A DNA stretch of 64,000 nt from Halpernia humi. GTDB taxonomy: Bacteria; Bacteroidota; Bacteroidia; Flavobacteriales; Weeksellaceae. Below are positions 11,375 to 27,138 of this stretch, piece after piece; the first letter of the stretch is position 1, and each line of letters opens with the position of its first letter. The translations under genes were made by a program, and so were the position numbers. The stretch covers positions 62,001 through 126,000 of the forward strand of contig NZ_FNUS01000004.1 of the NCBI RefSeq assembly GCF_900108025.1, read 5' to 3'. A model generated the notes under the pieces. The model had not been told where the DNA came from. It made no database searches and saw only the letters and a program-made list of their open reading frames with translations.

Positions 11375-11498
11375 TTTTTTTGAAAATAAATTTGGTTAAA
11401 GTATGACTTATCGGAAAAATGTAGGCAAATAGAACTGAACCGAAAAATTCAGCAAATTTGGCTTTTCCTCCGAAAGCATAAAAATTAAAAACAAATTT

Positions 11499-11660
11499 GG
11501 CAGGTCTCCTGACTTTCACATTTTTTGCGCCTTCCCATCTTTAGACAGTGGCTAGTTTTGCAAAAAAATTTTCGCGTGATTTACAGTTGCGGGGACAGTT
11601 GAAGATTTGCGCTTCATTCCCTATTAATCCCGATTTTACTCAGGAACCAAAAGTTGGGCG
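11499..11660 (-). ncRNA. Cobalamin riboswitch
   Basis: Read on the minus strand, the element starts with GGTTCC (11648-11643), then AATAGGGAAT (11625-11616), the B12-box core GTCCCCGCAACTGTAA (11596-11581) and the closing GTCAGGAGACCTGCC (11513-11499). These are the diagnostic parts of the adenosylcobalamin riboswitch in the right order. It lies in the 5' leader of the TonB receptor gene and should switch expression off when cobalamin is plentiful. The region 11375-11498 between switch and start codon carries no other gene. Confidence 0.93.
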
Positions 11661-11728
11661 AAGATAGTTATTTTAAGTTAATTGAGTTTTTGAGTTTTTG
11701 AGAATGTGAAAATGAAATAATTTGGAAA

Positions 11729-13507: not shown

Positions 13508-13654
13508 ATATTTATTTTTTTCAATTGTAAATTTAAGGCCTTAAAAATTGAATATCTCACAATTTCATTTTTTGAGAAAATTTTAACATTTGTAGAATTT
13601 TTAGAAGCAACAAAGTTTCAGATTTGTCGGAAGATTCGTCCGGCTTTTCATTCC

Positions 13655-13690
13655 AATCTTTTTCTTTTTTCAGGAAAAAGAAAAAGGATT
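13655..13690. terminator. AT-rich hairpin, possible terminator
   Basis: AATCTTTTTCTTTTT is followed by its near-complement AAAAAGAAAAAGGATT with a short CAGG-containing loop and one bulge. It lies downstream of the restriction endonuclease remnant on the minus strand. The stem is purely poly-purine/poly-pyrimidine, so it could also form unusual DNA structures. The surrounding gap 13508-13752 shows no gene. Confidence 0.4.
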
Positions 13691-13752
13691 TTCCCTTCAA
13701 TCCAGGCTAGAATGACCGGGATTTTTTTGTGTGAGGGAAGAAGTATATGTTT

Positions 13753-24159: not shown

Positions 24160-24191
24160 TTGCACAATTCAAAAAAATGTAATTATATTTG
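24160..24191 (+). promoter_or_regulatory. Promoter for the leader peptide/rtcB region
   Basis: TTG at 24160-24162 and TATATTTG at 24184-24191 are separated by 21 bases. A transcript would start around 24197, some 33 bases before the leader peptide ATG. Confidence 0.55.
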
Positions 24192-24229
24192 CAACTTATT
24201 AAGTATAAAATCTAAAAAAAACTGAAGTA

Positions 24230-24307
24230 ATGTTCAAATTAAATCAATTTAACACCAACAACTTACCACTTTCTGTGGTAATGCTTCGGGCTTTTACATT
24301 CTCATAG
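24230..24307 (+). CDS. Leader peptide (25 codons) upstream of rtcB
   Basis: A short frame begins MFKLNQFNTN, continues with LPLSVV and ends LRAFTFS before a TAG stop. It sits between a promoter and a factor-independent terminator. Four Leu, four Asn and four Phe are present, but no single amino acid dominates as it does in classical attenuator leaders. Its codons for the Leu-Arg-Ala stretch overlap CTTCGGG (24284-24290), which can pair with the left arm of the terminator. I infer a translated attenuator leader. It is too short to be sure that it is translated. Confidence 0.5.
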   Translation: MFKLNQFNTNNLPLSVVMLRAFTFS

Positions 24308-24330
24308 AAAATTTTCTTAAATGATAAAAC

Positions 24331-24366
24331 AAACCCGAAGTTGAAAAATTTCGGGTTTATTTTTTG
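24331..24366 (+). terminator. Attenuator-like terminator upstream of rtcB
   Basis: AAACCCGAA (24331-24339) pairs with TTCGGGTTT (24350-24358) and is followed by ATTTTTT. The upstream CTTCGGG at 24284-24290 could alternatively pair with CCCGAAG (24334-24340), which would prevent the terminator from forming. From here to the rtcB start (24367-24537) there is no gene, but a palindrome ATGGATTATCCAT near 24480 and an inverted repeat CAGATTTC/GAAGTCTG just before the ATG are visible. Confidence 0.75.
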
Positions 24367-24537
24367 TCAATATTTTTCAATTTAAAACTTCTCCGAAATT
24401 TTTGATGCCAATTTAACTGTTGATTATTTCAGCAGCATTATTCTTGCAAAAATGTGCTAATGTTTTGTGAAAATAACTATGGATTATCCATAAAAAACAG
24501 ATTTCAAAAAGAAGTCTGATTATTAAAATTAAAAAAA

Positions 24538-25929
24538 ATGGGAAATTTAAAATTAAAAGGGAAAGACATTTTAAAGTTGGGATATCCTAATAATAAAGTG
24601 GTTACAACAGCTTTGGAAGTGATGAAGAAAAACTTTCCGAACAAAAATATCAATTATGTAAAAAGTATTTTAAAAGACATTATTTTGCAACCAGAACACT
24701 ATAAAAATCATTTGTCATTTGGGCAAATTGCTGAAGAATTATTATCATTAAGCAAAGTAGAAAAAAGAGAAATACAATCTCAAAGAGCGCCCTATAAAAT
24801 TTTTGGAGAAAATATTGCGAACGAAGCAATTAACCAATTATACACCGCTTTAAAATTACCAATTTCTGCGAAAGGAGCTTTAATGCCCGATGCACATTAT
24901 GGTTACGGCTTACCAATTGGCGGAGTTTTGGCAACAAAAAACGCAGTAATTCCTTTTGGAGTTGGGATGGATATTGGCTGTAGAATGTGTTTAAGCATTT
25001 TAGACACACCAGTAACTTATCTAGATGGTGCAAGAGATAAATATGAAAAAGCACTTAACGACAACACGAAATTTGGAATGAATGAAGTGCACAAATCACA
25101 ATTTGAAAATGAAATTTTTGATCGTGATACTTTTGATTTGCTACCAATTTTGAAAAGATTAAAAGGAAAAGCAATCAAACAATTGGGAAGTTCAGGAGGT
25201 GGAAATCATTTTGTAGAATTCGGCGAAGTAGAAATTTTAGAGGAAAATAATGATTTTGCTTTGCCAAAAGGCAAATATTTAGGCATTCTTTCTCACAGTG
25301 GTTCACGCGGTTTGGGAGCAGAAATTGCACAATACTATTCAAGAGTTGCAGTAGAACAATGTCCGCTACCAAAGGAAGCACAGCATTTCGCTTGGTTAGA
25401 TTTAGACACGCATCTGGGTTTAGAATATTGGGTTGCAATGAATTTAGCGGGAGATTACGCTTCAGCCTGTCATCACGATATCCACAGAAGATTAATAAAA
25501 TCTGTGGGCGGAAGATTAAAGGCGCGAATAGAAAATCATCACAATTTTGCTTGGAAAGAATTGCACAATGGCGAAGAATTAATAGTCCACAGAAAAGGTG
25601 CAACACCCGCATCTGATGCCGAAATTGGTTTTATTCCAGGTTCTATGACGGCAAAAGGTTTTATTGTTCGTGGGAAAGGAAATCCAGATTCTATAAATTC
25701 TGCTTCTCATGGGGCAGGAAGAGCGCATTCTAGATCTTCAGCAAGAAATTTATTTACAAAAAATGATATTAAAACCGAATTGAAAAAACATAAAGTTAGC
25801 CTCATTGGAGGTTCTGTGGAAGAAGCGCCAATGGCGTATAAAAATATCAATGAAGTGATGAATTCTCAAAAAGATTTAGTAGATATTTTAGGAACATTTC
25901 AACCGAGAATTGTTAGAATGGACAAATAA
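24538..25929 (+). CDS. rtcB: RNA-splicing ligase RtcB
   Basis: A 463-residue GTP- and Mn2+-dependent RNA ligase that joins 2',3'-cyclic phosphate (or 3'-phosphate) and 5'-OH RNA ends. Metal and catalytic residues are visible: D145 and C148 in GMDIGCRM, N223/H224 in GGGNHFVE, H253 in LSHSGSRGLG, H334/H335 in IENHHNF and the guanylylated H391 in SASHGAGRAHSR. The next gene, 11 bases downstream, is the release-factor homologue prfH, a known partner; in that pairing RtcB is thought to repair damaged RNA, including rRNA, while PrfH frees stalled ribosomes. An attenuator-like leader lies upstream. Confidence 0.95.
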   Translation: MGNLKLKGKDILKLGYPNNKVVTTALEVMKKNFPNKNINYVKSILKDIILQPEHYKNHLSFGQIAEELLSLSKVEKREIQSQRAPYKIFGENIANEAINQLYTALKLPISAKGALMPDAHYGYGLPIGGVLATKNAVIPFGVGMDIGCRMCLSILDTPVTYLDGARDKYEKALNDNTKFGMNEVHKSQFENEIFDRDTFDLLPILKRLKGKAIKQLGSSGGGNHFVEFGEVEILEENNDFALPKGKYLGILSHSGSRGLGAEIAQYYSRVAVEQCPLPKEAQHFAWLDLDTHLGLEYWVAMNLAGDYASACHHDIHRRLIKSVGGRLKARIENHHNFAWKELHNGEELIVHRKGATPASDAEIGFIPGSMTAKGFIVRGKGNPDSINSASHGAGRAHSRSSARNLFTKNDIKTELKKHKVSLIGGSVEEAPMAYKNINEVMNSQKDLVDILGTFQPRIVRMDK

Positions 25930-25940
25930 AAATAGAAAAA

Positions 25941-26639
25941 ATGGAAAAAATAATACAAATTTCTTCTGGAAAAGGGCCTTTGGAATGCCAATATGTGGTA
26001 GCAAAAGTTCTGAAGGTTTTCTTAGAAGAAACTAAGCAAGAAAATTTAGAATATGAAATCTTACACAGGGTTTGTGGCGATGAAAATCTAAGTTTAAAAT
26101 CTGTAACTATAAGATTAACAGGCAAAAATACCAGTATTTTTCTGAAAAATTGGTTGGGAAGTATTTGTTGGATTGGCAAAAGTACTTTCAGAAAACTTCA
26201 CAAAAGAAGCAATTGGTTTATTGGGATTTTTGAAATTAAAACCTTAGAAAAAATAGAATTTAATGAGAAAGACATCCAATTTCAAACTACAAGAAGCCAA
26301 GGAAGTGGCGGCCAAAATGTAAACAAAGTAAATACCGCAGTTCGCGCCACACATTTGCCAACAAAAATTTCAGTTTTTGCACAAGATACAAGGTCGCAAC
26401 TAGAAAATAAAAAACTAGCAACAGCCAGATTGAAAGAAAAATACAAAAATTTTGAATTGCAACAACTAGAACAACAGTTGCAAGAAACTTGGTTTTCACA
26501 ATCTCAATTAGAAAGAGGAAACCCAGTGAAAACCTTTACAGGAAAAGATTTCAAGAAAAATGAAACAAACCCATCTTTCAAAAAGAAAAGAATTGTTTTG
26601 AAAAATGAACTAAAAAATTACCGAAATGAACTTAACTAA
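25941..26639 (+). CDS. prfH: Peptide chain release factor homologue PrfH
   Basis: A 232-residue class I release-factor homologue. The peptidyl-tRNA hydrolysis motif GGQ is at 123-125 in QGSGGQNVNKVNTAVRATH. It lacks the stop-codon recognition domain of RF1/RF2, as is typical of RF-H. Encoded directly after rtcB, it probably hydrolyses peptidyl-tRNA on ribosomes with cleaved rRNA decoding centres. The N-terminal half (about 100 residues) is a less conserved RF-H domain. The last 14 bases overlap the following TPR gene. Confidence 0.9.
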   Translation: MEKIIQISSGKGPLECQYVVAKVLKVFLEETKQENLEYEILHRVCGDENLSLKSVTIRLTGKNTSIFLKNWLGSICWIGKSTFRKLHKRSNWFIGIFEIKTLEKIEFNEKDIQFQTTRSQGSGGQNVNKVNTAVRATHLPTKISVFAQDTRSQLENKKLATARLKEKYKNFELQQLEQQLQETWFSQSQLERGNPVKTFTGKDFKKNETNPSFKKKRIVLKNELKNYRNELN

Positions 26640-27138
26640 AAACAAATATTATTTCGAAGCATTAGATTTTTATCCCTACAATTTACCCGATTGTTTAGAG
26701 GCTTTAAATTACGCTTTGTCCTATGATCCCGAAGATTCAGACGCGCTTTGTTTAATGGGCAGAATCTATTCTGAAGTGCTAAAAGATTACGAAAAAGCCA
26801 AAGACTATTTCGAAGAAGCAATGCTTCACAATGTTTCAAATATCAATACGCCACAATATTATATCGCCTGTTTACTCAATAACGAAGATTATTATGAAGC
26901 AGAAAAATTAATCAATTATGCACTAAAAATAAAAGGAATTGATAGATATAACCTACTGTATTACAGATCTATACTCTCTGAAAAAAGAGGAAGTTTGCGC
27001 AACGCTTTGCAATTTTTAAAAGATGCAGAACAACTCTGTTTCTGCGCTTCAAGTTTAGAAATAGTGAAAGAACGAAAGAAATTCATAAAATCTAAAATTG
27101 CGAAGAAAAAATCTAAACAAAAGAAGGAAACCAATTAA
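26626..27138 (+). CDS. TPR-like repeat protein in the rtcB-prfH operon
   Basis: A 170-residue helical protein whose middle part looks like tetratricopeptide repeats (for example DSDALCLMGRIYSEVL then KDYEKAKDYFEEAM), ending in a very basic Lys-rich tail (KSKIAKKKSKQKKE). Its start overlaps the end of prfH by 14 bases, so the three genes are co-transcribed and probably translationally coupled. The basic tail suggests RNA or ribosome binding. No specific family is recognised, so a role in RNA repair or rescue is inference from context. Confidence 0.7.
   Translation: MNLTKNKYYFEALDFYPYNLPDCLEALNYALSYDPEDSDALCLMGRIYSEVLKDYEKAKDYFEEAMLHNVSNINTPQYYIACLLNNEDYYEAEKLINYALKIKGIDRYNLLYYRSILSEKRGSLRNALQFLKDAEQLCFCASSLEIVKERKKFIKSKIAKKKSKQKKETN

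Follow-up and report, generated by a model that had tools for sequence, protein, structure and literature searches.

A conserved attenuator-like leader with alternative pairings precedes the rtcB-prfH operon of Halpernia humi and many other Bacteroidota

The window, meaning the whole 64-kb stretch of Halpernia humi DNA that was analysed, belongs to a genome of 3.1 Mb and contains lpxK on the minus strand and, beyond a gap, rtcB, prfH and a gene for a TPR-like protein on the plus strand. The closest named-genome matches of the window RtcB come mostly from Chryseobacterium and its relatives, with 75-79% identity. The three genes of the operon are the following.

24538 to 25929, plus strand: rtcB, RNA ligase (PF01139)
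25941 to 26639, plus strand: prfH, peptide chain release factor H (TIGR03072, 213.5 bits against a cut-off of 166.65)
26626 to 27138, plus strand: TPR-like protein, third member of the operon, overlapping prfH (Pfam TPR matches below the curated cut-offs)

In enterobacteria, rtcBA is under RtcR/sigma54 control, which relies on an activator protein and a -24/-12 promoter. That system and the window operon are alike in placing RNA-repair genes under what would be stress control, but the promoter of the window operon is -33/-7-like and is followed by an RNA leader, and the neighbouring genes checked (lpxK and VF530) do not encode regulators of the RtcR/sigma54 kind. Elsewhere in the window, a cobalamin riboswitch (11482-11664) and a Flavo-1 RNA (13633-13712) lie on the minus strand. 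Several related loci carry extra operon genes (L179:2336-3067, L065:4251-4994, L179:4573-5115, L069:3561-4931). One, between leader and rtcB, encodes a basic protein of about 245 aa for which Pfam gives no match; another, between rtcB and prfH, encodes a product weakly similar to NTP_transf_5 (nucleotidyltransferase; below cut-off); a PcfJ-like protein is also encoded.

Upstream of rtcB, the window carries these elements.

24160 to 24191, plus strand: promoter, with TTG at 24160-24162, a 21-nt spacer and TATATTTG at 24184-24191
24222 to 24229, plus strand: region 1, CTGAAGTA, abutting the leader start codon and predicted to pair with region 2 (minimum-energy fold and covariation)
24230 to 24307, plus strand: leader reading frame of 25 codons, ATG at 24230 and stop codon TAG at 24305-24307, MFKLNQFNTNNLPLSVVMLRAFTFS
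24263 to 24281, plus strand: in-frame hairpin TTACCAC-TTTCT-GTGGTAA, a candidate pause hairpin (fold; stems in the cluster representatives)
24282 to 24290, plus strand: region 2, TGCTTCGGG, alternative partner of region 1 or region 3
24334 to 24340, plus strand: region 3, CCCGAAG, antiterminator partner of region 2 or 5' arm of the terminator
24331 to 24366, plus strand: intrinsic terminator (regions 3:4), with a stem of 12 pairs at 24331-24358 followed by ATTTTTT
24393 to 24399, plus strand: CCGAAAT, 3' of the terminator and complementary to region 4, a possible partner in the read-through RNA

Bacteroidetes promoters have a -33/-7 consensus, which the TTG and TATATTTG elements fit. The preliminary description of this DNA had reported the promoter, the 25-codon frame, a CTTCGGG/CCCGAAG pairing and the terminator, and direct reading of the sequence found all four at their positions. 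It did not mention region 1, next to the start codon, or the in-frame hairpin. The predicted folding energy of the RNA from 24198 to 24366 is -37.1 kcal/mol; 200 shuffles average -19.9 (sd 3.3), which gives z -5.2, and none of them is as stable. In the minimum-energy fold of the leader RNA, CTGAAGTA (24222-24229) pairs with TGCTTCGG (24282-24289), while CTTCGGG (24284-24290) can pair with CCCGAAG (24334-24340) to give an antiterminator. Because region 1 pairs with the same CTTCGGG, the leader follows a trp-like 1-2-3-4 plan, and at the sequence level an intrinsic terminator sits between promoter and first gene. Attenuators of the trp and his type use this 1:2, 2:3 and 3:4 logic, with a terminator before the first gene and a ribosome near the stop codon blocking segment 2. 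The window leader has the logic and the terminator placement in common with them, but differs in that no control codons were found, segment 1 lies at the start site, and an extra hairpin stands within the frame.

The preliminary description had suggested looking for the leader in relatives. A DNA search of the window's own genome and 58 relatives gave a long, diverged leader match in 8 of the 58, and the frame has exactly 25 codons in the window and in all 8 relatives despite differing peptides. For 80 RtcB loci of named genomes, the upstream 2 kb were then subjected to a pattern scan that scored frame, start-site CGAAG, in-frame CTTCG and terminator. The leader was kept before the same operon at 65 of the 80 loci, whereas the controls gave 1 (reverse strand), 2 (2 kb downstream) and 0 (shuffles) positives. 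Together with the window and seven genome loci, these 65 make up a collection of 73 distinct leaders; the eighth genome locus, L004, is from the same genome as L042. The collection covers Chryseobacterium-like genera, Flavobacterium, Tenacibaculum, Polaribacter, Aquimarina, Myroides, Sphingobacterium, Neptunitalea and others.

The pairings were followed across this collection. Since the MAFFT alignment leaves region 1 unaligned, 1:2 pairs were counted on motif-anchored positions, and L089, which has no recognisable region 1, was dropped from the pair counts (n=72). Position 5 of the 1:2 pairing forms a standard pair in 72/72 leaders (A-U 30, C-G 27, U-G 11, U-A 4) and position -1 in 55/72. Successive positions of the 2:3 extension are paired in 71, 59, 68, 62 and 59 of 72; one switches between G-C and A-U (45/14; 59/72 paired) and another between C-G, U-A and U-G (31/29/8; 68/72 paired). 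The core CGAAG/CTTCG is nearly invariant and carries little covariation information. A swap test with 10000 partner permutations was also performed on 20 leaders, each representing one cluster at 70% identity. Native partners gave -10.8 kcal/mol against -7.8 for swapped ones in 1:2 (matched by 0 of 10000 permutations), and -14.7 against -11.8 in 2:3 (matched by 1 of 10000). With 13 clusters the corresponding numbers for 1:2 and 2:3 were 0 and 0, and with 7 clusters 4 and 63; at 3 clusters the signal was gone (3374 and 1649). As for the in-frame hairpin, each of the 20 representatives has at least 4 pairs before region 2, in unrelated sequences; the mean score is 9.25 against 5.75 in shuffles (0/200 as high), and L057, L089 and L090, with scores of 6-7, are near chance.

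These data support conservation of the predicted pairings 1:2, 2:3 and 3:4 and, in most leaders, of a hairpin within the frame, and the covariation backs a putative antiterminator that is mutually exclusive with the terminator. The attenuation layout proposed in the preliminary description is supported by the conserved leader and its pairings; its term, translational attenuation, has to be replaced by transcription attenuation controlled by translation.

The geometry of the frame is also conserved. Its length is 24-28 codons in the 73 leaders, which had been selected for 22-29. In 72/73 the ATG follows 2-6 nt after the CGAAG-like motif of region 1, and the distance from the start of region 2 to the stop codon is 21 nt in 56/73 and 15-25 nt in all. 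To model the ribosome, the RNA was truncated after region 3 and folded with a 30-nt mask, assuming an E. coli-like footprint. With the P site at codons 1 to 15, pairing 2:3 formed in at least 70 of the 73 leaders (in the window itself at codons 1-14). It formed in 4/73 at codon 19, in none at codon 20 or at the second- and third-last codons, and in one at the last codon; with the mask one step on, at the stop codon, it was back in 16/73. According to this model, the short frame is placed so that the position of the ribosome would decide the fold. An attenuator that stops transcription once its leader has been translated normally, and lets it continue when a ribosome is delayed early on, would be expected to behave in this way. 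In the ribosome-free equilibrium fold to region 3, 2:3 is favoured in 71/73 leaders and 1:2 in 2/73, so that an off state in untranslated RNA would depend on folding kinetics, with 1:2 winning because it forms first, which is a weak point of the model.

The encoded peptide appears to matter less. Codon differences within the collection were 288 synonymous and 583 non-synonymous, counted over non-independent pairs, and the synonymous share of 0.33 compares with 0.24 under neutrality, which suggests weak selection at the peptide level; translation of the leader is for this reason deduced from the open frame. Most peptides begin with MF, and they diverge widely between clusters. Their recurrent LR motif corresponds to the RNA segment CTTCG, and 3/73 leaders read region 2 in another frame (as FG or FA) with the RNA kept. 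In codons 2-15 of the 20 cluster representatives there are no single-residue runs or control codons, in agreement with the earlier remark that the peptide points to no single tRNA. Given the weak peptide selection, the lack of residue runs and the three leaders with another frame, the peptide seems to weigh less than the RNA itself and the process of translation.

These observations bear on two other kinds of attenuator. In the first, a classical one, the leader would sense a single charged tRNA. It would have the 1-2-3-4 layout seen here, and leader-peptide attenuation has been reported, from strong clues, before amino-acid operons of Flavobacterium psychrophilum (PMC9723704). Threonine and phenylalanine each occur in codons 2-15 of 19/20 representatives, and the Rfam match of lowest E value in the leader region is a Thr_leader over the terminator region, at 23.9 bits far below its gathering score of 55; no Rfam family was found at gathering score. 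Yet the residues form no runs, T and S accounting for 32/280 each (raw counts), and none of the strong model matches examined precedes a biosynthetic gene. Amino-acid genes as targets, which would have counted against the preliminary description, were thus not encountered among these matches. With both control codons and downstream amino-acid genes absent among the leaders and strong matches examined, sensing of one amino acid is not supported and is regarded as very unlikely. In the second, the ribosome would stall on a particular nascent peptide together with a drug or metabolite, as in erm or tna. The near-fixed frame length and the common MF start would suit such an arrest, as would the response of the Pseudomonas PA5471.1 system (see below) to antibiotics (PMC12057347), but it is unlikely in view of the wide divergence of the peptides between clusters, the weak selection within them and the changes of frame across an unchanged CTTCG.

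Another caveat raised earlier was that rtcB might have its own promoter after the terminator. Exact TANNTTTG occurs upstream of 49/73 leaders (5.0 expected from shuffles), in 34 of them together with the -33 TTG (0.3 expected), and in 0/73 of the 110-nt stretches past the terminator (4.7 expected). Within these 110 nt nothing bears the caveat out; a promoter further downstream may exist, notably where genes separate leader and rtcB. A constitutive terminator or small RNA unit, with rtcB driven from such a promoter, could account for the other genes or long gaps between leader and rtcB at many loci and for the conserved CCGAA-type stretch past the terminator. This stretch, C[CG]GAA within 75 nt, is present in 56/73 leaders against 4.7 expected, although in just 10/20 clusters. 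A constitutive terminator would leave the covarying 2:3 antiterminator without a role and, like the lack of TANNTTTG close behind all 73 terminators, this makes it highly improbable.

To examine how closely the leader is tied to the operon, a covariance model was trained on the 73 leaders. At RtcB loci it added L044, L049, L063 (Capnocytophaga) and L071 (E up to 3.3e-9), as well as L051 and L054 (E 1.9e-7 and 3.5e-6), where rtcB and the TPR gene are present and no prfH was found. In L044 and L063 the leader is upstream of prfH, which precedes rtcB there, and in L049 the distance from the leader to rtcB, further downstream, is 4.5 kb. Two weak candidates, recognised partly by eye, are L106 and L108; in Flexithrix (L108; model E 3e-4) the segments GGTTCAGG and CCTGAACC follow, by eye, the same plan with other letters. 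Neither pattern nor model gave a convincing leader at L050, L052, L053, L064, L081, L084 (where just 151 nt upstream were searched) and L109; L081 does have PrfH. About 1.7-2.1 kb upstream of rtcB, the Flavobacterium-type rtcB-TPR loci L051-L054, which lack a prfH match, seemingly carry units of leader frame and terminator with CCGG-type arms, in some two in tandem (e.g. L054, -1864 and -1712).

In a family scan, 63/148 genomes had a model match at E < 1e-7. All 63 matches were inspected: 61 lie before rtcB, one before prfH and the TPR gene (G091, with no rtcB between leader and prfH/TPR or within the 3 kb inspected) and one before a TPR gene (G001). Two of the strong matches, from one genus (L198 and L200, in G093 and G016), have a shorter frame of 19 codons. 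An open frame of 18-30 codons is found in 73/73 distinct strong matches of the model, whose training leaders had themselves been selected for having a frame. In a phylum scan of 395 Bacteroidota genomes, 27 had the leader at E < 1e-7 and 28 had PrfH over the curated cut-off; the leader occurred in 26/28 PrfH genomes and in 1/367 without PrfH (Fisher test 3e-37, with kinship ignored, a value that overstates independence because the genomes are related). The exceptions are G391, with the leader before a TPR gene, and G186 and G288, with PrfH and no leader found. As only 7 candidates per genome were scored in the phylum scan and 20 in the family scan, some leaders may have been missed. Among the matches listed, 15 weaker loci (E 9e-6 to 5e-3) were inspected by eye. 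L174, the same place as L209, has a leader-like unit before rtcB and a TPR gene in a genome without PrfH over the cut-off. The other 14 were rejected, none showing a leader of this kind by eye and most resembling terminators at gene ends. A plasmid search with the leader and the start of rtcB returned one record, which matched rtcB alone, with no leader.

G001 belongs to the same genus as the window. Its leader is kept before the TPR gene (G001:C2:304083-304237, L211), with no prfH in the 8 kb past it, and the genome has no RtcB of this type, the best match being a 31% paralogue. Since it keeps leader and TPR gene without this rtcB, the TPR gene is apparently tied to the same control. In G391, too, a TPR homologue directly follows the leader, without rtcB or prfH of this type adjoining. 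These two genomes also speak against termination being set by a ligand that binds the leader (RtcB, PrfH, the TPR protein or cleaved rRNA), with the frame incidental. The close association of the leader with the rtcB-prfH-TPR operon would agree with a ligand of that sort, and the near-invariant CGAAG/CTTCG cores could be its binding site, but the flanking pairs covary and both frame length and the distance from region 2 to the stop codon are conserved, so that ligand binding has little probability.

The preliminary description held that control of this type would be unusual for rtcB-prfH. A precedent has in fact been proposed. In P. aeruginosa, transcription of armZ (PA5471, RtcB-like), next to PA5470 (prfH), is proposed to be attenuated by the PA5471.1 leader peptide; the system is induced by ribosome-targeting antibiotics, and its mechanism, according to a review, still needs confirmation (PMC12057347). 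By its published description, this system resembles the window operon in having a leader and terminator before RtcB-like and PrfH genes. It belongs to another phylum, ArmZ acts as an anti-repressor of MexZ, and the window differs from it in having region 1 at the leader start site and a TPR gene in the operon. The precedent makes the mechanism proposed here likelier and the idea less new.

The same enzymes as in the window operon are encoded by rtcB2-prfH of E. coli, which protects against colicin E3, a toxin that cuts 16S rRNA (PMC9223846). A 15-codon frame precedes this operon (L221:2247), and in the minimum-energy fold the ribosome site of this frame pairs into it. The scan found no T-run terminator at this locus, where control may act on translation. 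Of 5426 E. coli genomes, 5347 match this region, at 95-100% identity. At L221:2225-2362 (E. coli), L220:2320-2450 (Aureibacter) and L223:2135-2270 (Shinella), rtcB-prfH is preceded by a short frame with codons or a ribosome site able to pair with adjacent segments. For these plasmid loci the fold z-scores are -2.4 (E. coli), -3.3 (Shinella) and -0.7 (Aureibacter); nothing clear was seen before the operon of the Thiodictyon plasmid locus L222, where the gene before prfH is annotated as hypothetical. The E. coli, Shinella and Aureibacter leaders are single cases and only a lead.

Among the matches listed, a literature search (open-licence papers; titles and abstract openings) revealed no report of a leader before rtcB-prfH outside Pseudomonas. 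A term search found neither 'leader' nor 'attenuat-' in the 2006 and 2022 operon papers (PMC1586002, PMC9223846). The F. psychrophilum study gives 64 structured 5' regions in its Table S7, and its main text contains neither 'rtcB' nor 'prfH' (PMC9723704). The leader family of the window was thus found neither in Rfam nor in the literature searched.

Taken together, these features indicate, as far as sequence comparison can, that the element is a real attenuator-like leader, conserved and specific to this operon, which forms a new sequence family and has a close functional precedent. It probably acts as a transcription attenuator that is controlled by translation and independent of any one amino acid. 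Of its four segments, the first lies where the leader frame starts and the second towards the frame's end, while 3 and 4 make up the terminator. RNA polymerase would start at the conserved promoter and may pause near the internal hairpin while a ribosome loads on the leader. A healthy ribosome would reach the end of the frame and cover region 2, leaving region 3 free, so that 3:4 forms and transcription terminates. If no ribosome loads, 1:2 would form first and occupy region 2, and 3:4 would win again. If a ribosome is stuck or slow in the first 15 codons or so, region 2 would stay open, with region 1 covered if the ribosome is near the start; 2:3 would then form, the terminator would be blocked and rtcB, prfH and the TPR gene would be transcribed.

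The best reading of the leader is that it would sense ribosomes that initiate yet stall early. With RtcB and PrfH encoded downstream, a sensible signal would be early arrest of any kind, damaged ribosomes included, for instance after damage to the decoding centre, and RtcB and PrfH would repair and rescue. The link from ribosome damage to the leader is one that we infer. A wider reading, which we put forward tentatively and with somewhat less than even confidence, is that the leader is a Bacteroidota-wide, amino-acid-blind sensor of ribosome health, that leader control is a general rule for rtcB-prfH, and that the response includes the TPR protein, so far unrecognised as a part of it. In this reading, the position of segment 1 at the start site of the leader would make read-through report ribosomes that are able to initiate and unable to move on, a state to be expected after damage to the decoding centre. 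The logic of a start site paired into a short frame might likewise have evolved, or been retained, before rtcB-prfH in E. coli and, with less certainty, in Aureibacter and Shinella.

The question at stake is how cells turn on ribosome repair only upon ribosome damage, outside the RtcR system. If the proposed mechanism is true, a conserved leader that reads early arrest would make this question testable with one reporter, the TPR protein would be a new operon member, and the Bacteroidota would be joined with the Pseudomonas armZ case in one regulatory theme.
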